Shown in pieces: positions 3,181 through 32,587 of a stretch of DNA of 36,930 bases. Origin of the DNA: Anaerolineales bacterium (GTDB taxonomy: Bacteria; Chloroflexota; Anaerolineae; Anaerolineales; E44-bin32); NCBI GenBank assembly GCA_037382465.1, contig JARRPX010000086.1, positions 1-36,930 on the forward strand, in the 5' to 3' direction. Made by a program: the position numbers and the translations under genes. The stretch's first letter is position 1. Every line of letters begins with the position of its first letter. Under the pieces are notes generated by a model, which did not search any database, was not told the DNA's origin, and saw only the letters and a program-made list of their open reading frames with translations.

Positions 3181-3543
3181 TCAACCTACTTCCGACGACG
3201 AATTATCTAGCGAAAAGGCTTTCTCTACTTCGTCTACCGTTCCCTGCTCTCGATAATCCACAGCAGCACGGAAGAGACACCGGCTGGAAGGTGTTAATTC
3301 GGGAAGATGCATGGTAAACGTCAATCTGCTGTTCATGGCACCGATGATATTCGTGCTGGCCAACTCAACATCATCGCCATCCGTGATTACGACAGCTATA
3401 TCCGGTGGAATTCGAAACGGTGTCAACTCCATCGAGATTCTTACTCGACGATGATCCGCTTGAACAGAAAATGACACCTTTCGAATACGAACTTCTTCGG
3501 GCGGGAGAGCATCTTCAGACGGATTATCAACGGGTAATTCCAT
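3181..3543 (-). CDS. Small protein of unknown function upstream of the regulator
   Basis: A 120-residue protein I do not recognise. It has no signal peptide, membrane segment or Cys pair. The first ~20 residues are acidic and Pro-rich; the middle alternates hydrophobic and charged residues (RKVSFSVQADHRRVRISMEL; RLTFTMHLPELTP), suggesting a small beta-sandwich. It starts at ATG 3543, and a frame stop lies just upstream, so no earlier ATG is possible. The stop is seven bases before the regulator's start on the same strand, which argues for an operon and perhaps a role in modulating that regulator (inference). A perfect TATAAT lies about 24 bases upstream of the ATG. Confidence 0.7.
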   Translation of the reverse strand: MELPVDNPSEDALPPEEVRIRKVSFSVQADHRRVRISMELTPFRIPPDIAVVITDGDDVELASTNIIGAMNSRLTFTMHLPELTPSSRCLFRAAVDYREQGTVDEVEKAFSLDNSSSEVG

Positions 3544-3566
3544 GGCCGTTTTGCCGCGTATCCTCC

Positions 3567-3572
3567 ATTATA
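3567..3572 (-). promoter_or_regulatory. Putative -10 for the small gene and regulator
   Basis: On the minus strand a perfect TATAAT occupies 3572-3567, 23 bases before ATG 3543. No good -35 is found at 16-18 bases. The predicted leader is only about 17 nt. The 325-bp divergent gap 3544-3868 holds this hexamer and another on the plus strand, and nothing else I can support. Confidence 0.4.
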
Positions 3573-3758
3573 GGGCATTCCCGAAAGTTTCCACCCCCAA
3601 CCCATGCCATTGGCAGACGTTAAACCTATCACATCTTGCAAAATTTACCACTTGCGCATAGCGGACTTCCTCAAAGTTTCTGTGTTGAATGGGTCAAAAG
3701 TATGCTGGTAGTTGAAAGTGGTAGAATTGATGTGATGTGTTGAAACGCCGATACCCAT

Positions 3759-3764
3759 TATAAT
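3759..3764 (+). promoter_or_regulatory. Putative -10 for the dipeptidase operon
   Basis: Perfect TATAAT at 3759-3764. The nearest -35-like hexamer is TTGAAA at 3740-3745, but the 13-base spacing is too short, so the -35 is uncertain. The predicted start near 3771 would give a leader of about 98 nt before the dipeptidase ATG at 3869. Confidence 0.4.
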
Positions 3765-3868
3765 TCGTTCCACAACTTTCGTATTGACTTGTAATTCAGA
3801 ACCTTTCCCCAGGTGCGTTGGGAAATGCGTTTTTCATTGAAATCTTCCCAACGGTAAGGAGTTCACAC

Positions 3869-5239
3869 ATGTCCGCTAGATCATCTGCCATCGAATGGGC
3901 TCGTTCACACCAGGCCGATGCGTTGGAGGATTTCAAGACCATACTTCGCATACCTTCGATTTCGACGCTGCCGGAAAATAATGAGGACGTCGAGCGAGCA
4001 GCCGAGTGGATCACAGAGAACCTGCGTGAACTCGGATGTGAAGTTGCGAAAACGATCGAAACCGGCGGCCATCCGGTGGTATACGCCGAGTGGCTGGAGG
4101 CCGAATCAGACAAACCGACGATCCTGGTATACGGTCATTACGATGTTCAACCCCCGGAACCCCTGGAGGAATGGGAAAGCGATCCCTTCGACCCTCAAGT
4201 GCGAGGGGAAAATCTGTACGCATGCGGCGCATCCGACATGAAGGGACAAATGATTGCCTTTCTCACGGCAGTGAAGGCCATCCAAAGCACCTCCCGATTG
4301 CCCGTGAATCTCAAATTCATGTTCGAAGGAGAAGAGGAAGTTGGTTCGCCCCATCTCGCCGACTTTATCCACGAACACAAGGATATGTTGTCCAGCACTT
4401 TTTGTTTGAACTGCGATTCGGGGATATTGGATCCCGAAACCCCCTCGCTGACGTATACCTTGCGCGGTCTGTCCTACTTCGAACTTCGCTTACAAGGCGC
4501 TAGAAGCGATTTGCATTCCGGCTTGTTTGGCGGTGCGATCGACAATCCCGCCAACGTTCTTTGCCAGTTGATCGCAGGCATGCGCGACGCCAGCGGCAGA
4601 GTCACACTTCCCGGCTTTTATGACGATGTCCGTCCGCTGACGGACGAAGACCGTGAGGAGATGGTCGCCAAACCGGATTCCTGGTGGCTCGAGCAGACTG
4701 GCGTTCCCGTCCTTTTCGGCGAAGAAGGATACACGGCTGCGGAGAGAGCCACTGCCCGTCCGACGTTGGACGTCAACGGCCTGCTGAGTGGCTTTACGGG
4801 CGAAGGCTCGAAAACCGTGCTTCCTGCGAAGGCCATGGCGAAATTCTCCATGCGCCTGGTGCCCGATCAGGATCCGAATAAAATCAAAACCATCGTGGAA
4901 ACTTACCTGACCGAGAACGCTCCGCCTACCGTAACCTGGGAATTAGAGGATTTGTCGAGCTGCTTCCCGTCGATCAGCGAGCGCGATTCGGCTTCTGTCC
5001 GTGCAGCAACGCGTGCCTTCGAGAAAGTCTGGGGTAAAGCCCCCGTCTTTCAACGTCAGGGTGGTTCCGTTCCCGTTGTGGGCATCATCCAGGAGCTGCT
5101 GGGATTGGAAAGTCTGATCATGGGTTTCGGCTTGCCCGACGACAACCTGCACGCCCCCAACGAGAAGCAGCACATCCCTACGTTTTATCGCGGCATCGAG
5201 ACCTACATTCATTATCTATTCGAGACAGCAGAAGACTAG
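3869..5239 (+). CDS. M20-family metallopeptidase (dipeptidase)
   Basis: A 456-residue di-zinc peptidase of family M20 (dipeptidase / CNDP-like). Visible motifs are the first metal-ligand and catalytic stretch YGHYDVQPPEP (H90, D92), the bridging region GASDMKGQ (D123) and the catalytic Glu region FEGEEEVGS (E155/E156). A central lid-type dimerisation domain follows (about residues 190-340, with LHSGLFGG), then the C-terminal catalytic half. The frame is open upstream to a TTG at 3818, but ATG 3869 is chosen because AAGGAG (3856-3861) sits seven bases before it. No signal peptide, so cytoplasmic cleavage of short peptides is expected. The downstream DUF1385 gene begins three bases after the stop, so they form an operon. 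Confidence 0.92.
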   Translation: MSARSSAIEWARSHQADALEDFKTILRIPSISTLPENNEDVERAAEWITENLRELGCEVAKTIETGGHPVVYAEWLEAESDKPTILVYGHYDVQPPEPLEEWESDPFDPQVRGENLYACGASDMKGQMIAFLTAVKAIQSTSRLPVNLKFMFEGEEEVGSPHLADFIHEHKDMLSSTFCLNCDSGILDPETPSLTYTLRGLSYFELRLQGARSDLHSGLFGGAIDNPANVLCQLIAGMRDASGRVTLPGFYDDVRPLTDEDREEMVAKPDSWWLEQTGVPVLFGEEGYTAAERATARPTLDVNGLLSGFTGEGSKTVLPAKAMAKFSMRLVPDQDPNKIKTIVETYLTENAPPTVTWELEDLSSCFPSISERDSASVRAATRAFEKVWGKAPVFQRQGGSVPVVGIIQELLGLESLIMGFGLPDDNLHAPNEKQHIPTFYRGIETYIHYLFETAED

Positions 5240-5242
5240 AAC

Positions 5243-6166
5243 ATGCAGGAGATGAAGAACAGCATGGAAGAAAAATTGCCAGCGTACGGCGGCCAGGCGT
5301 TGATCGAAGGTGTAATGATGCGTGGTAAACATAGTTGTGCCATGGCCGTGCGTGCACCAGATCAATCCATCGTCGTCGAAACTGAAAAACTCGGCAGCAT
5401 CTATCAAAGCAGGATTGCCCAACTGCCGTTCGTCCGCGGTTTGATCACGCTCTGGGATGCACTCGCTCTCGGCATACGGGCACTCGTATTTTCAGCGAAC
5501 ATTCAAGCGCCGGAAGATGAGAAGATCGAAGGCGGGATGCTCGCCCTCACCCTCGTGCCCTCGCTGCTCTTCGCTGTTGCCGTTTTCATGCTCCTGCCTA
5601 TCGGTATCGCTTATCTGGCGGAACGATTCCTTGCCTGGAACGCCTGGCAATCCAATCTGCTCGAGGGTTTCGTGCGCCTCGGATTGCTGCTTGCCTACCT
5701 CGCAGCCATACGCCGCGTTGCGGACATTCGACGCGTCTACATGTATCATGGCGCAGAACATAAAACGATCAACGCCTTCGAAGATGGCGCGGAACTGAAC
5801 ATAGAAGGTGTGCGGCCTTACTCGCGCCAACATCCCCGCTGCGGAACGGCCTTCCTGCTCACTGTTTTTGTATTTTCGATACTGCTGTTCAGCGCCATTG
5901 GTCCCTTACCGATGCTGACCCGAATCATAAGCCGCCTGGTGCTGCTCCCCTTGCTCGCTTCGCTGGCTTATGAGTACATCCGCTTCACGGGAACATTGCA
6001 CAACCATACCCTGGCGAAAATCCTCATGGCACCGAATCTATGGCTGCAGAACATGACGACGGCTGAGCCGGATGATGATATGCTGGCAATCGCCATCGCA
6101 GCCTTTAAAGCCATGTATTCGGAAGAACAACGGCTGGCAGCCGAAGCATCGGCCGTCTCAACTTGA
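5243..6166 (+). CDS. DUF1385 family membrane protein (YqhQ-like)
   Basis: A 307-residue integral membrane protein of the DUF1385 family, whose function is unknown. The family signature is clear: YGGQALIEGVMMRG near the N-terminus, and YHGAEHKTINAFEDG followed by RQHPRCGTAFLL in the second half. Hydrophobic segments lie at about residues 90-120, 130-160 and 200-250. Start ATG 5243 has no obvious ribosome binding site; an alternative ATG at 5264, with AGGAG at 5247-5251 twelve bases upstream, would shorten it by seven residues. It follows the dipeptidase by three bases, suggesting translational coupling. The C-terminal ~40 residues are cytoplasmic in character (EEQRLAAEASA). Confidence 0.88.
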   Translation: MQEMKNSMEEKLPAYGGQALIEGVMMRGKHSCAMAVRAPDQSIVVETEKLGSIYQSRIAQLPFVRGLITLWDALALGIRALVFSANIQAPEDEKIEGGMLALTLVPSLLFAVAVFMLLPIGIAYLAERFLAWNAWQSNLLEGFVRLGLLLAYLAAIRRVADIRRVYMYHGAEHKTINAFEDGAELNIEGVRPYSRQHPRCGTAFLLTVFVFSILLFSAIGPLPMLTRIISRLVLLPLLASLAYEYIRFTGTLHNHTLAKILMAPNLWLQNMTTAEPDDDMLAIAIAAFKAMYSEEQRLAAEASAVST

Positions 6167-6203
6167 TCCACCGCTCCCATTTCATCGGCGAATTCGACGT
6201 TCA

Positions 6204-6232
6204 TTGACTGGCCCCGGACGGCTGGGTACAAT
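6204..6232 (+). promoter_or_regulatory. Sigma-70-type promoter of the tRNA-modification operon
   Basis: TTGACT at 6204-6209, a 17-base spacer, and TACAAT at 6227-6232: five of six consensus bases in each hexamer with ideal spacing. The predicted start is about 6239-6240, leaving a leader of about 14 nt that contains a GGGG-type ribosome binding site before ATG 6254. It sits in the only sizeable gap between the DUF1385 gene and the sulfur carrier gene, so it should drive ttuB-ttuA-queF-yhhQ. Confidence 0.75.
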
Positions 6233-6253
6233 CCTTGAGAAATTGGGGTCAAT

Positions 6254-6460
6254 ATGCCGATATCCATTAAATTGCGAGATACTGTATACGAAGTACGGGC
6301 AGGCATGACAGCTCGAGACGCGCTGAAGAAAATCAATGTGCTGCCCGAGACGGTTCTCATAACCAGAAATGGGGAACTCATTACCGACGACGAGATTCTC
6401 ACAGATGGAGAGGAAATCCGCTTGATCGCTGTAATTTCAGGCGGTTCCAATCGCGGATAG
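6254..6460 (+). CDS. ttuB: TtuB/ThiS/MoaD-type sulfur carrier with C-terminal extension
   Basis: A 68-residue beta-grasp sulfur carrier. The ThiS/MoaD-like core ends in EIRLIAVISGG, the usual Gly-Gly that is adenylated and converted to a thiocarboxylate. Here four more residues (SNRG) follow the Gly-Gly before the stop. Such extensions are known in a few carriers that need trimming by a JAMM-type protease before use; no such protease gene is in this window. The gene is 24 bases upstream of a clear ttuA homologue, so a role as sulfur donor for tRNA 2-thiolation is the best reading, though ThiS or MoaD roles cannot be excluded by sequence alone. Start ATG 6254 follows GGGG at about 6244. Confidence 0.8.
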   Translation: MPISIKLRDTVYEVRAGMTARDALKKINVLPETVLITRNGELITDDEILTDGEEIRLIAVISGGSNRG

Positions 6461-26423: not shown

Positions 26424-26459
26424 ATGAAGATTTCTGCAGAAAGGTGTAGATGTGAGTAG
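26424..26459 (+). other. Short upstream ORF overlapping the S1 gene start
   Basis: ATG 26424, five bases after a strong AGGGGG (about 26413-26418), opens an 11-codon frame (MKISAERCRCE) that stops at 26457-26459. It overlaps the S1 gene's GTG (26452) in another frame. The best ribosome binding site in the leader therefore serves this peptide, and S1 translation may depend on it by coupling. Could instead be chance. Confidence 0.35.
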
Positions 26460-27183
26460 CAAAGAAGGTACGGGAACGCAGCTCCATTTGGAAGACCTCA
26501 AACCCGCCATGAAACTCGAGGGGCGCGTGACGAAGACCGACCTGGTGGGCGCATTTGTCGACGTTGGCGTAGAATGCGAAGGCTTGATCCACATTTCAAA
26601 ATTGAAGGAAAGCCCGGTGAACCGGGTGGAAGACGTCGTCCAGGTGGGACAGGAAGTCGAGGTTTGGGTTCATCTAGTGGACCCGGACTCGGGGCGGCTC
26701 GAATTGAGCATGTTGAAACCCATTCTGTTGAAATGGAAAGACCTCAAACCCGGCAAACGCCTCAAGGGAAAAGTCGTACGCATCGAAAATTTCGGGGTGT
26801 TCGTTGATGTAGGCGCGGAGCGTCCGGGACTGGTGCATATCAGCGAAATGAGCAACGAATATGTAAAGAATCCTTCGGAAATCGTATCCCTGGGAGACGA
26901 AGTCGAAGTCAACGTTATCGATGTAGATCGAAAGAAGCGTCAGATTCGCTTCAGCATGAAGGACTCCATCGAGGACTACGTCGATGAGATCGATGAATCC
27001 GAAGAGGAAACCCCGACGGCGATGGAACTGGCGTTGCGCCAGGCGCTGGAACAGTCGGATCAAAACACCAAAGCTGCGCCGAGCGAACCTTCAAAGAAAA
27101 AGCAGGCCAAACGCGACGAATTGGAAGACATTCTTCAGCGAACGTTGGAACACCGCGTCCGGACCGCATCGACAGAATCCTGA
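26452..27183 (+). CDS. Two-S1-domain RNA-binding protein
   Basis: A 243-residue protein with two S1 RNA-binding domains, about residues 17-88 (GRVTKTDLVGAFVDVGVECE; GLIHISKL) and 97-170 (GKVVRIENFGVFVDVGAERP; GLVHISEMS). The C-terminal ~70 residues are charged, acidic then Lys-rich (SKKKQAKRDELEDIL) and probably unstructured or helical. It resembles the short S1-type proteins of Gram-positive and Chloroflexota bacteria that bind mRNA or the 30S subunit, but is much shorter than ribosomal protein S1. Start GTG 26452 follows AAGGTG by about five bases. A bidirectional terminator lies 43 bases downstream. Confidence 0.85.
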   Translation: MSSKEGTGTQLHLEDLKPAMKLEGRVTKTDLVGAFVDVGVECEGLIHISKLKESPVNRVEDVVQVGQEVEVWVHLVDPDSGRLELSMLKPILLKWKDLKPGKRLKGKVVRIENFGVFVDVGAERPGLVHISEMSNEYVKNPSEIVSLGDEVEVNVIDVDRKKRQIRFSMKDSIEDYVDEIDESEEETPTAMELALRQALEQSDQNTKAAPSEPSKKKQAKRDELEDILQRTLEHRVRTASTES

Positions 27184-27225: not shown

Positions 27226-27250
27226 AATCGGGCGTCAGATACGCCCGATT
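27226..27250. terminator. Bidirectional terminator between convergent genes
   Basis: AATCGGGCGT (27226-27235), loop CAGAT, ACGCCCGATT (27241-27250): a perfect ten-base-pair stem. On the minus strand it runs directly into a T-tract (complement of 27222-27227); on the plus strand a TTTTT follows a few bases later. It separates the S1 gene from the convergent gene at 27321. Confidence 0.85.
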
Positions 27251-27320: not shown

Positions 27321-27602
27321 TCATATAACATCGTCTTCGATCCAATCCTCATCTCCATCTTCATCTTCTTCATCATTACCACTCTCGTCCTCCCACACCT
27401 CATCGATTTCATCGAGTTCATCGATATCGTCGATGTCTTCGATTTCATCCAATTCCCAATCCTCGGGTTCCGAGAGCGTGACATCGTCGATGTGGGAATA
27501 TGTCAGGCATCCCTCATCGGGATCGAGCCGGATAATCTCAGCCGTGCAGTAACCCGATTCCAGGAAGTAACAATCGATGTAGCGACAACGAATGCGTGCC
27601 AT
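27321..27602 (-). CDS. Small Cys-rich protein with long acidic tail
   Basis: A 93-residue protein. The N-terminal 35 residues hold four Cys (6, 11, 19, 32; pattern C-x4-C-x7-C-x12-C, with RYIDCYFLESGYCTAEII between), which looks like a small metal-binding or redox module and resembles DUF1540-type Cys patterns (tentative). From about residue 38 to the end it is almost wholly Asp, Glu and Ile/Leu, predicted disordered or a charged helix. It begins 15 bases after the VKOR stop on the same strand, so the two are co-transcribed. A bidirectional terminator follows its stop. Function unknown. Confidence 0.75.
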   Translation of the reverse strand: MARIRCRYIDCYFLESGYCTAEIIRLDPDEGCLTYSHIDDVTLSEPEDWELDEIEDIDDIDELDEIDEVWEDESGNDEEDEDGDEDWIEDDVI

Positions 27603-27617
27603 ATTCTTGAACTCCGT

Positions 27618-28055
27618 CTATTCGATCACGAAATTCTCTCTCATTCGCAAGATACTCAAGACGAACAAGAAAGACATTAGGGCCGCAGAAAGAATACAAA
27701 ACGGACAGATCGCATGAATAACGGCCACTTCGAGATACGTCAGGTACGCAGAGTAAATCATACCGGTCAGGGTGACGCCAAACAATGCCAGATTCAAGTT
27801 ATCCGTCCACGCAGGACGCCGCATTCCGACGACAATCATCAGAAGGATCAAGGCGTATCCCAGTGCACCGATGAAGGCAATCGGGACATCTCCAATCATA
27901 GCATATGGACTGCTGTTTACCGCATCGCAATCCCCGATTTGTGAACAGGCCGCCGTGTTGCCGGTTATCTTCAGCCAGCCCAGGTAGAATGAATCGATGA
28001 AACCAGCAGCCGCGGAAATCAAACCCAGCAAATTCATCCGACTGACGATCACCAT
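27618..28055 (-). CDS. Vitamin K epoxide reductase family protein (VKOR)
   Basis: A 145-residue membrane oxidoreductase that re-oxidises disulfide-forming partners and passes electrons to quinone. The loop Cys pair is Cys37 and Cys43 (ACSQIGDCDAVNSSPY), and the active-site pair is CPFC (Cys117, Cys120) in the last helices; four to five hydrophobic helices are visible. Length matches a stand-alone VKOR with no thioredoxin domain. Start ATG 28055; ATG 28037 is an alternative. The operon partner downstream is the Cys-rich acidic protein. A good promoter sits about 40 bases upstream. Confidence 0.92.
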   Translation of the reverse strand: MVIVSRMNLLGLISAAAGFIDSFYLGWLKITGNTAACSQIGDCDAVNSSPYAMIGDVPIAFIGALGYALILLMIVVGMRRPAWTDNLNLALFGVTLTGMIYSAYLTYLEVAVIHAICPFCILSAALMSFLFVLSILRMRENFVIE

Positions 28056-28094: not shown

Positions 28095-28123
28095 AATATA
28101 CACGAAACCCCTCCGGCTGTCAG
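28095..28123 (-). promoter_or_regulatory. Promoter of the VKOR operon
   Basis: Minus strand CTGACA (28123-28118), 17-base spacer, TATATT (28100-28095): five of six matches in each hexamer. It lies between the rel stop (28178) and the VKOR start, giving a leader of about 33 nt. Confidence 0.6.
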
Positions 28124-28177: not shown

Positions 28178-30343
28178 TCATCCGGGGCGGAGCCGCCGTG
28201 CTTCGAGTACGTTGGGAAGCGCCTCCAGGCGATTGAGCACACGGCTCAACTGCTCGATATCGGTCACATCCATCACCAAATCGAACATCGCCAGACTGTT
28301 CTTCGTCGAGACGTGGACCGACGACATGTTGATGCCCTCATTTGCCTCAAGCGTCGAAACGTCCCGCATCAACCCATCGCGATCGTAGGCTCGCAGACGG
28401 ACCGAAACGGGATAGGTTTGCCGGAGTCTGCCCCACGAGACCTGTACCAATCGTTCGCGGTCTTTAATCCGTAACACGTTGGGACAGTCCTGACGATGGA
28501 TCGTTGCGCCGCGTCCGCGGGTGATGTATCCCACGATCGGATCGCCCGGCGCCGGTTTGCAGCACATCGCCATTCGTGAAAGTAAACCGCCCGACAACCC
28601 GAGGATACTTACGTCTTCGGTCGTGACGTCCTTCGCCGGAACGGGTTCCAGAATTTCCGCAAAGCCAAATTCGTCTTCTTTTTCCTCGACGACTTTGGCG
28701 ATGATCTTATTCAGATGTAGGTCACCGCAGCCGATAGCGACCTGCATTTCCTCTGCGTTCGGGTATCCCAAATCCCGGGCGATTTTCTCGTAGGAGACGC
28801 TTTCCACACCCAGGCGTTTCAATTCACGTTCCAACAACAGACGACCGTGGGAGATGTTCAGCTCACGATCGCGCCGGCGGAACCACTGCCGGATCTTGCT
28901 GCGGGCTCGCTGGCTGCGGACCATTTCCAGGCTCGGGTTGAGCCAGTCCCGACTGGGTCCGCCGCGCTTCGCCGTCAGAATTTCGACCGAATCTCCGGTC
29001 TGGATCTTGTAATTTAACGGAACCAGTTTGCCCCCCACTTTCGCACCGCGGCAGCGATGGCCGATGTCCGTGTGAATGTGGTAGGCGAAATCGATAGGAG
29101 TCGATCCTGCCGGCAAGTCGATCACGTCGCCTTTGGGCGTGAAGACATACACACGATCGTTGAAGACGTCCGACTTCATCGCATCCACGAAATCGCCGGC
29201 GTCGTCGACGTCCTGGCGCCATTCCATCAATTTGCGCAGCCAGACAATCCGCTGTTCGAAAGTATCGTCTCTCGGCCGGCCTTCCTTGTAGCGCCAATGC
29301 GCCGCGATGCCGTATTCGGCCTTTTCGTGCATCGGTGGCGTCCGAATTTGAGCTTCGAGGGTACCGCCATCGTTGTAGACCACGGCGGTGTGCAAGGATT
29401 GGTAGAAGTTATCCTTCGGCGTGGCGATGTAATCGTCGAACGTGCCTGGTATGGGTTTCCAGCGATTGTGAATGACTCCCAATGCCAGGTAACAGAGCGA
29501 TTCGTTATCTACGATCACGCGCACTCCGCGGACGTCGTAGACCATGTCGAACGGCACCCCTTTACGGTCCATTTTGCGGTAGATGGAATACAGATGCTTC
29601 GGACGTCCGTAGACTTCAGCCTGTACGCCCGCTTCCGCCAGGACCGTTTTCAACTGCTTCGAAATTTGCTCCAAATCCTGCTCGCGATCGACTCGCCGTT
29701 TGGCGACGTTTTCAGCGATCTCCTTGTATTTTTCCGGAAAGACGTAGCGGAAGGCCAGATCCTCCAACTCCCACTTCATCTGCCAGATTCCCAGCCGGTT
29801 GGCCAGCGGTGCAAAAATCTCCAGTGTCTCCTCGGCGATTCGCTTCCGTTTCTCTGGTGGAAGATGAGACAGCGTACGCATGTTGTGAAGGCGGTCAGCG
29901 AGCTTGATCACGACGACCCGAACGTCGTCCCCCATGGCCAGAAAGGTTTTACGCAGGGTTTCTTTGGCCAATTCGCTCTTCGTGGCGCGAGGTTCTTTTC
30001 CACTTCCGGCGCGTCGACTGACACGTGGCAGCTGGGTCAACTTGGTCACGCTGTCCACCATTAGCGCCACCTCGTCGCCAAAATCACGAGTTATATCTTT
30101 CAAACTGACTTTGGTGTCCTCGACGGTGTCGTGGAGCAATCCGGCGACGATCGCCAGGGTCGGCGCGCCCAATTCAGCCAGAATAGCGGCAACGGCGAGA
30201 CAATGCTGTACGTAGGGTTCCCCGGAGGCGCGCTTCTGGCCACGATGGGCTTTATTGGTGAATTTATAGGCGCGCTCGATGAGCTCCCGATCTGCGGGAC
30301 TCGAGTCATCCGGTAAAAGTTTGAGAAGACCTTCAAACTCCAT
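28178..30343 (-). CDS. rel: Rel/SpoT-family (p)ppGpp synthetase/hydrolase
   Basis: A 721-residue long RSH protein. The HD hydrolase domain is intact (His47, HDTVED with His71 and Asp72, Glu75). The synthetase domain shows YGRPKHLYSIYRKM, YDVRGVRVIV and PKDNFYQSLHT. The position that is RxKD in bifunctional Rel and ExDD in RelA reads TFDD (301-304). TGS (VYVFTPKGDVIDLPAGST, about 405-465) and a C-terminal ACT domain (about 645-718, RAYDRDGLMRDVS) follow. So hydrolysis is expected and synthesis likely. Start ATG 30343 has a weak AGGG. An extended -10 and a 10-bp dyad lie about 130 bases upstream. Confidence 0.95.
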   Translation of the reverse strand: MEFEGLLKLLPDDSSPADRELIERAYKFTNKAHRGQKRASGEPYVQHCLAVAAILAELGAPTLAIVAGLLHDTVEDTKVSLKDITRDFGDEVALMVDSVTKLTQLPRVSRRAGSGKEPRATKSELAKETLRKTFLAMGDDVRVVVIKLADRLHNMRTLSHLPPEKRKRIAEETLEIFAPLANRLGIWQMKWELEDLAFRYVFPEKYKEIAENVAKRRVDREQDLEQISKQLKTVLAEAGVQAEVYGRPKHLYSIYRKMDRKGVPFDMVYDVRGVRVIVDNESLCYLALGVIHNRWKPIPGTFDDYIATPKDNFYQSLHTAVVYNDGGTLEAQIRTPPMHEKAEYGIAAHWRYKEGRPRDDTFEQRIVWLRKLMEWRQDVDDAGDFVDAMKSDVFNDRVYVFTPKGDVIDLPAGSTPIDFAYHIHTDIGHRCRGAKVGGKLVPLNYKIQTGDSVEILTAKRGGPSRDWLNPSLEMVRSQRARSKIRQWFRRRDRELNISHGRLLLERELKRLGVESVSYEKIARDLGYPNAEEMQVAIGCGDLHLNKIIAKVVEEKEDEFGFAEILEPVPAKDVTTEDVSILGLSGGLLSRMAMCCKPAPGDPIVGYITRGRGATIHRQDCPNVLRIKDRERLVQVSWGRLRQTYPVSVRLRAYDRDGLMRDVSTLEANEGINMSSVHVSTKNSLAMFDLVMDVTDIEQLSRVLNRLEALPNVLEARRLRPG

Positions 30344-31814: not shown

Positions 31815-32135
31815 TTAGCGATATCGCTCCGCGGCGAAGGGGATCAGCGCCATGTGTCTTGCGCGTTTGACGGCTTTCGCAACCATACGCTGATGTTTGG
31901 CGCACGCACCCGTCTCGCGTCGAGAACGGATCTTGCCCTGTTCGGTAACGTAGCGTTTGAGCAGATCGATCTGTTTGTAATCGAGCGCTTTGGTTTTATC
32001 CGCGCAGAATTGGCATACTCTCGGCCGGCGCGAGAAACGTCGGCCCCTGCGAGGAGAACGCGAGCGCCGCTGTGGTTGATCGTCCTCGTCTTCGTCCTCT
32101 TCCTCGTCTTCTATCAGTTCTTCTTCTTCAGCCAA
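31815..32135 (-). CDS. rpsR: 30S ribosomal protein S18, with acidic N-terminal extension
   Basis: Ribosomal protein S18 ([53 protein letters not shown]). The four metal ligands of the zinc-type form are present: CxxC near residue 41 and CxxH near 78. At 106 residues it exceeds the usual ~75 by about 30, the extra being an acidic run ([18 protein letters not shown]) then an Arg-rich stretch. The start is TTG 32135, supported by AGGAG eight bases upstream and by the absence of an ATG before the S18 core. Third gene of rpsF-ssb-rpsR. Confidence 0.95.
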
Positions 32136-32191: not shown

Positions 32192-32587
32192 TTAGAAGGG
32201 GAAATCCTCTTCCATCGCTTCGCTTGAAATTGGTGCGTCGTTCGATATTTCCCGGCGATCGCCGAGCATGATCATCTCCTTGGCCACCAATTCCGTCGTG
32301 AAATGCTTGTTTCCCTCGTTATCTTCCCAGCGGCGGGTTTGCAAACGCCCTTCCACATAGACTTGCTGCCCTTTGTGCAAGTATTGATTGCATATCTCCG
32401 CCAATGAGCCCCAGGCGACGACGTTGAACCATTCCGTTTCCTCGTGTCTTTCGCCATCGGCAGAAGTCCAGGAACGCGTCGTTGCTACGCTGAACGTCGT
32501 CACCGGACGCCCCGAAGGTGTATAACGCATCTCGGGATCGCGTCCCAAATGTCCGATGATCATTACTTTATTCAACCCACGACTCAT
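32192..32587 (-). CDS. ssb: Single-stranded DNA-binding protein
   Basis: A 131-residue SSB: an OB-fold (LNKVMIIGHLGRDPEMRYTP; ETEWFNVVAWG; KGQQVYVEGRLQTRRW; KEMIMLG), a short linker, and the acidic tip EEDFPF that recruits partner proteins. AAAGGAG lies six bases before ATG 32587. Placed between rpsF and rpsR as in many bacteria. Confidence 0.96.
   Translation of the reverse strand: MSRGLNKVMIIGHLGRDPEMRYTPSGRPVTTFSVATTRSWTSADGERHEETEWFNVVAWGSLAEICNQYLHKGQQVYVEGRLQTRRWEDNEGNKHFTTELVAKEMIMLGDRREISNDAPISSEAMEEDFPF

Follow-up and report, generated by a model that had tools for sequence, protein, structure and literature searches.

A conserved four-cysteine protein with an acidic tail encoded beside VKOR in Anaerolineae

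Organization of the VKOR-Cys4 locus

The window, the whole 36,930-nucleotide stretch of Anaerolineales DNA that was analysed, had been reported in a preliminary description to hold a VKOR gene adjoining a small gene for a four-cysteine protein with a 50-residue acidic tail. We recovered both open reading frames on the minus strand, VKOR followed after 15 bp by the small gene (hereafter Cys4), together with the motif C-x4-C-x7-C-x12-C (Table 1). Upstream of RelA, and in the same direction, the window encodes a SurA-like PPIase, ribosomal protein S18, SSB and ribosomal protein S6. The S18 protein (31815-32135, minus strand; 87.6 bits against PF01084), which is encoded between SSB and the PPIase, is extended at its N-terminus by an acidic stretch of some 20 residues.

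The terminator-like stem lying 3′ of the Cys4 gene has 10 pairs and a T-rich flank and is usable on both strands. Because this stem follows it, the Cys4 gene probably closes its transcription unit, and the short gap with its GGAG, taken together with the stem, suggests that this minus-strand unit includes RelA and VKOR. Five terminator-like sites were found, where shuffled versions of the whole scanned stretch gave 3.8 on average; a promoter-like site at 28095-28123 was the only one of its kind, where shuffling gave 2.5. We infer that VKOR and Cys4 are co-transcribed in many species.

Table 1. Positions of the Cys4 gene, its parts and neighbouring features in the window
Feature	Position	Strand	Remarks
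Cys4 acidic-tail protein	27321..27602	-	93 aa, calculated pI about 4.05
DUF1540-like Cys4 domain	27495..27602	-	residues 1-36; Cys 6, 11, 19, 32
Acidic tail	27324..27473	-	residues 44-93; 31/50 D/E; ends in Ile; pLDDT 56-65
VKOR/Cys4 gap	27603..27617	-	15 bases; GGAG 9 nt before ATG (by eye)
Stand-alone VKOR	27618..28055	-	145 aa; catalytic Cys 37, 43, 117, 120
Terminator-like stem	27226..27250		between convergent S1 and Cys4 genes
RelA/SpoT	28178..30343	-	upstream of VKOR, same direction
Two-domain S1 protein	26452..27183	+	convergent neighbour of Cys4 gene
SSB	32192..32587	-	same minus-strand run; tail ends MEEDFPF; comparison only, outside pair

The Cys4 domain and its acidic tail

Of 61 genomes, comprising the window's own and those of 60 relatives, 49 carry the Cys4 gene, as do 138 of 396 genomes of a class-wide sample, where it occupied 140 places and nearly every carrier had a single match. 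In a phylum sample, 36 of 400 genomes matched, and all 36 fell within one class, the same as the window's. We also collected named loci, which include those of Anaerolinea thermolimosa and Thermanaerothrix daxensis; these are the best 80 of 180 found, so counts drawn from them lean to near relatives. Cys4 represents a genuine and conserved branch of its gene family. Among the matches listed, literature on DUF1540, on VKOR in Chloroflexi and on acidic tails gave no description of this branch, and a plasmid collection searched for the Cys4 protein gave no match at E<=0.1.

The cysteine spacing of the window protein was identical in 80 of the 80 named loci (best 80 of 180), each with exactly four cysteines and never a fifth, and the four cysteines were the only invariant columns among 55 diverse members (55/55). 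The window protein itself had no Pfam match even at E<=10 and no NCBIfam match, so its link to DUF1540 (PF07561) rests on its relatives. DUF1540 matched 18 of 25 near relatives at E<=10 (best 0.004) and 45 of the 55 diverse members at E<=1 (best 3e-7). Of the 15 diverse members scored singly, L161 (30.9 bits) and L142 (28.0 bits) pass the gathering cut-off of 22.1 bits, which no match in the 61 near genomes exceeded. These relatives are related to DUF1540, and the Cys4 domain of the window protein would be a divergent relative of the same family.

The likeness to DUF1540 lies in a short domain with four conserved cysteines, at least two Anaerolineae members of which score above the Pfam cut-off; the difference lies in the acidic, Trp-bearing tail, which falls outside the 40 positions of the Pfam model, and in the window protein, which does not score. 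DUF1540 is described as a family without an assigned function (PMC7677010), and members near Firmicute cytochrome bd genes are described as having one transmembrane segment (PMC5322542), an architecture that, as given there, does not fit the Cys4 protein. The Cys4 branch is thus a compact, conserved and usually single-copy form of a functionally unassigned family, and its acidic tail, with a Trp and a mostly hydrophobic end, offers a testable trait outside the Pfam model.

The structure prediction proposed in the preliminary description for the cysteine domain gave a confident model within the full protein (AlphaFold pLDDT 83-91, against 56-65 in the tail) and a poor one when the domain was folded alone (mean pLDDT 63). 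Foldseek returned no match for the Cys4 protein among solved structures, and there was accordingly nothing to carry into a VIA-align comparison. Most likely, the four cysteines hold one structural metal ion (Zn), and the putative metal-binding role in the earlier guess is its most plausible part. No 19-residue stretch in 120 members had a mean hydropathy above 1.19, that is, none formed a hydrophobic export segment, which makes export via a common signal peptide unlikely and points to a cytosolic protein.

The tail had been called almost pure Asp/Glu, which overstates its composition: the last 50 residues of the window protein are 62% Asp/Glu (31/50), with 13 hydrophobic residues and no Lys or Arg, and end in EDDVI. 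Tails lacking Lys and Arg were found in 61 of the 80 named loci (best 80 of 180), and a Trp was present in every tail of the 68 dereplicated members, a set that leaves out L081, whose start is not complete. The last residue was hydrophobic in 92 of 121 tails and 50 of the 68 dereplicated tails, against 22.7% in the tail interior, and aromatic in 62 of 121 and 33 of 68, against 8.5% in the interior; the 121 tails combine the 80 named loci, 40 class regions and the window, and include duplicates because the first two sets overlap in part (for instance L116/L169 and L131/L171). Among 936 neighbouring open reading frames used as controls, the last residue was hydrophobic in 170 and aromatic in 50. 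Sixteen controls were acidic-tailed, two of them Cys4 genes that we left out; of the 14 that remained, three had hydrophobic ends and none had an aromatic end, and with just 14 such frames the hydrophobic ends may reflect a general bias of acidic tails. The tail is probably disordered, as the low pLDDT values suggest.

Linkage of Cys4 to VKOR and to other genes

The window VKOR scores 98.1 bits against PF07884 (cut-off 27.5), and its loop cysteine pair and CxxC motif were invariant in 51 of 51 aligned VKOR rows, comprising the window's VKOR and 50 from named loci. Lys and Arg are concentrated in the N-terminus, second loop and C-terminus of VKOR, while the side bearing the cysteines is poor in them: with segments set by hand, those presumed to lie inside averaged 2.61, 1.90 and 1.90 Lys and Arg over the 51 rows, versus 0.65 and 0.61 for those outside. 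By the positive-inside rule, this pattern places the active site outside the cell. An inverted VKOR with a cytosolic active site, which would permit contact with Cys4, was rejected on the charge pattern of the same 51 rows.

VKOR regenerates DsbA, as described in PMC11208910, and we asked where thioredoxin-fold proteins are encoded. There is no DsbA gene between RelA and VKOR in the window. The window's genome has three Thioredoxin_4 (DsbA-like) matches above the cut-off, all elsewhere than the pair locus, and these three proteins are available as putative partners for this VKOR. In the class loci, a DsbA-like gene lay one or two places upstream of Cys4 in 8 of 39 (six families), and in five of those six families it was directly upstream of VKOR, so in these families a partner of the kind normal for VKOR belongs to the locus. 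The earlier suggestion that Cys4 stands in place of a thioredoxin-fold partner was misleading, since DsbA-like proteins are encoded elsewhere in the genome and, in distant relatives, at this very locus. The likeness of the window locus to a DsbA-VKOR pathway is confined to the four catalytic cysteines that its VKOR keeps and to the DsbA-like proteins that precede VKOR in distant relatives, whereas the Cys4 protein has neither a CxxC motif nor a thioredoxin match. A thioredoxin-like role for Cys4 was rejected on these grounds, namely the missing CxxC and hydrophobic export segment and its occurrence without VKOR.

The window's genome has a second VKOR (G000:C1:103195-103578; L184:2636-3850, minus strand) in a 404-residue frame with CPHC in its N-terminal part, as seen by eye. 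That part matched Thioredoxin_4 weakly (E=0.11, 13.1 bits, cut-off 23.2), and a thioredoxin-VKOR fusion is only suggested. Many VKOR matches of relatives likewise sit in frames of about 350-450 aa. In L173, a DsbA-like gene between MoeA and Cys4 (3269-3952, plus strand) contains one in-frame TGA; because this falls exactly on the first cysteine of the CxxC motif (*GHC), the gene probably encodes a selenoprotein. In L146, the DsbA-like neighbour has a hit below the cut-off to NCBIfam NF041057, ‘thioredoxin-like (seleno)lipoprotein’.

Conservation of the pair in Anaerolineae, which the preliminary description had proposed to check, was borne out among near relatives. Among the 49 near genomes with a Cys4 gene, the window's included, 26 have VKOR directly upstream of it in the same orientation (judged by eye from coordinates); VKOR was also directly upstream in 55 of the 80 named loci (best 80 of 180), with VKOR absent in 23 and two loci cut by contig ends. 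Of the other 23 near carriers, six lack a VKOR match altogether and 17 encode VKOR at another place; in two of the 23 (G011 and G019) the Cys4 gene is close to a contig end. Across the class, 9 of the 39 parsed loci, representing 7 of 27 families, have VKOR immediately upstream. These 39 come from 40 fetched loci, hand-chosen from the 140 places mostly for family spread; L169 is outside the 39, and its coordinates place VKOR directly upstream. Occurrence mostly apart from VKOR, which had been named beforehand as the observation that would speak against a pairing, was thus seen across the class and not within the order.

The independence of the two genes is also visible at single loci. RelA is still upstream of Cys4 in 22 of the 23 named loci lacking VKOR (best 80 of 180). 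Conversely, G009 (L185) retains the order RelA-MoeA-VKOR-S1 with no Cys4 open reading frame; in the gap at the Cys4 place one frame reads WIDCSFQDDPCCA, a sequence similar to the conserved stretch, and this interval (5403-5688 of L185, after an intact VKOR) may be a decayed remnant of a Cys4 gene. Carriers of Cys4 without VKOR and the G009 locus with VKOR and no Cys4 together reveal that each gene persists without the other. The proposal that Cys4 is a redox client or regulator of VKOR is not supported, in view of this loss, of the 44 of 138 class carriers of Cys4 that have no VKOR match, and of the predicted placement of the two on opposite sides of the membrane. As far as the data go, what ties Cys4 to VKOR is position and not function. 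Even a close operon pairing that persists across families need not imply that a redox enzyme and its neighbour share a reaction.

The Cys4 gene is the constant element of the locus while its neighbours change. Read in the window's direction, the gene order is RelA-(MoeA)-(VKOR)-Cys4, with a RelA match upstream of Cys4 in 69 of the 80 named loci (best 80 of 180); the open reading frame after RelA was confirmed as MoeA in L074, L101, L105 and L185, and MoeA was found by profile in others. Distant families often have MoeA-DsbA-VKOR-Cys4 or MoeA-MobB-Cys4, and no RelA match was found in the distant-family loci among the 39 class loci parsed. Because DsbA and MobB were each searched with a single seed and MoeA with three, the counts of these neighbours are lower bounds. 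A DksA-like zinc protein acting beside RelA had also been considered. The cysteine spacing of DksA differs from that of the Cys4 protein, and for this reason and the missing RelA matches in distant-family loci this reading was dropped.

Candidate roles of the Cys4 protein

We favour, with moderate confidence, the reading that the Cys4 protein is a cytosolic metal-knuckle adaptor with an acidic docking tail, whose VKOR neighbour shares its transcript and not its reaction. The N-terminal DUF1540-type domain would hold one structural Zn through its four invariant cysteines, and the disordered acidic tail, with its Trp and its usually free hydrophobic or aromatic end, would dock on a partner protein in much the same way as the acidic tails of SSB and T7 gp2.5. 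VKOR would generate disulfides in the ordinary manner on the outer side of the membrane, relying on DsbA-like proteins whose genes lie elsewhere in the genome; although transcribed together in many species, VKOR and Cys4 would take part in separate reactions.

The tail invites comparison with SSB, whose layout, as outlined in a review, includes a flexible C-terminal tail that contacts partners (PMC9917605). Like the tails of SSB and T7 gp2.5, the acidic tail of the Cys4 protein ends in a hydrophobic residue (Ile in the window); the protein differs from SSB and gp2.5 in lacking an OB fold, a Pro-Phe end and evidence for a part in DNA metabolism. The two SSBs of the window's genome end in DFPF and EIPF and the Cys4 protein in EDDVI, so the likeness is one of layout only: the Cys4 tail may work like an SSB tail without being one, a resemblance of mode and not of membership. 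A bolder form of the adaptor reading, which we regard as unlikely, makes the protein an Anaerolineae-specific cytosolic hub in which a DUF1540-type metal knuckle with an SSB-like acidic tail recruits a housekeeping machine, possibly one also contacted by SSB tails. The latter is suggested by the minus-strand run of the window, which holds S6, S18, SSB, the SurA-like PPIase and RelA. If true, recruitment of such a machine would be the first function for a DUF1540 relative.

Cys4 could instead be dedicated to a DsbA-VKOR oxidation unit as its partner or regulator, such as a sensor in the cytosol that binds the inner loops of VKOR. Tight spacing and the order kept in 55 of the 80 named loci (best 80 of 180) argue for this, as do the seven of 27 class families with VKOR directly upstream, five of them with DsbA before VKOR, and the co-occurrence of the two genes in the class sample (odds ratio 2.46, p about 5e-5, kinship not corrected), where 94 genomes had both, 44 Cys4 only, 120 VKOR only and 138 neither, counting as VKOR any match at E<=1e-5, fused forms included. 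We nevertheless consider it improbable, given those 44 and 120 genomes with one gene alone, the G009 locus in which VKOR stays and Cys4 is gone, and the different predicted membrane sides of the VKOR active site and the Cys4 protein. Another candidate role is in molybdenum-cofactor assembly with MoeA and MobB, where Cys4 would be a small metal protein or an adaptor. In its favour, MoeA or MobB is encoded in the same orientation no more than three open reading frames upstream in 20 of the 39 class loci and in 17 of 27 families, compared with seven for VKOR, and MoeA stands between RelA and VKOR in L101, L172 and L185. It is weakened to a similarly improbable level by the 14 of 138 Cys4 carriers without a MoeA match, some of them genomes listed as 95-99% complete, and by the equal frequency of MoeA in carriers (124/138) and non-carriers (232/258). 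The window locus has no MoeA, as just 122 bases lie between RelA and VKOR, though its genome has three MoeA_N matches. That Cys4 is a metal buffer or storage peptide whose acidic tail binds divalent ions would suit the invariant cysteines and the high Asp/Glu content; we consider it quite improbable, because a single Cys4 site has small capacity and because neither the Trp found in all dereplicated tails nor the many hydrophobic ends would be explained.

On the other side of Cys4, several distant families encode an amidohydrolase with kinship to SAH/MTA deaminases, which follows the gene in L141, L145, L151, L156, L160, L161, L163, L173, L178, L180 and L146. The L146 protein (4399-6387) also matches CYTH weakly in its C-terminal part.
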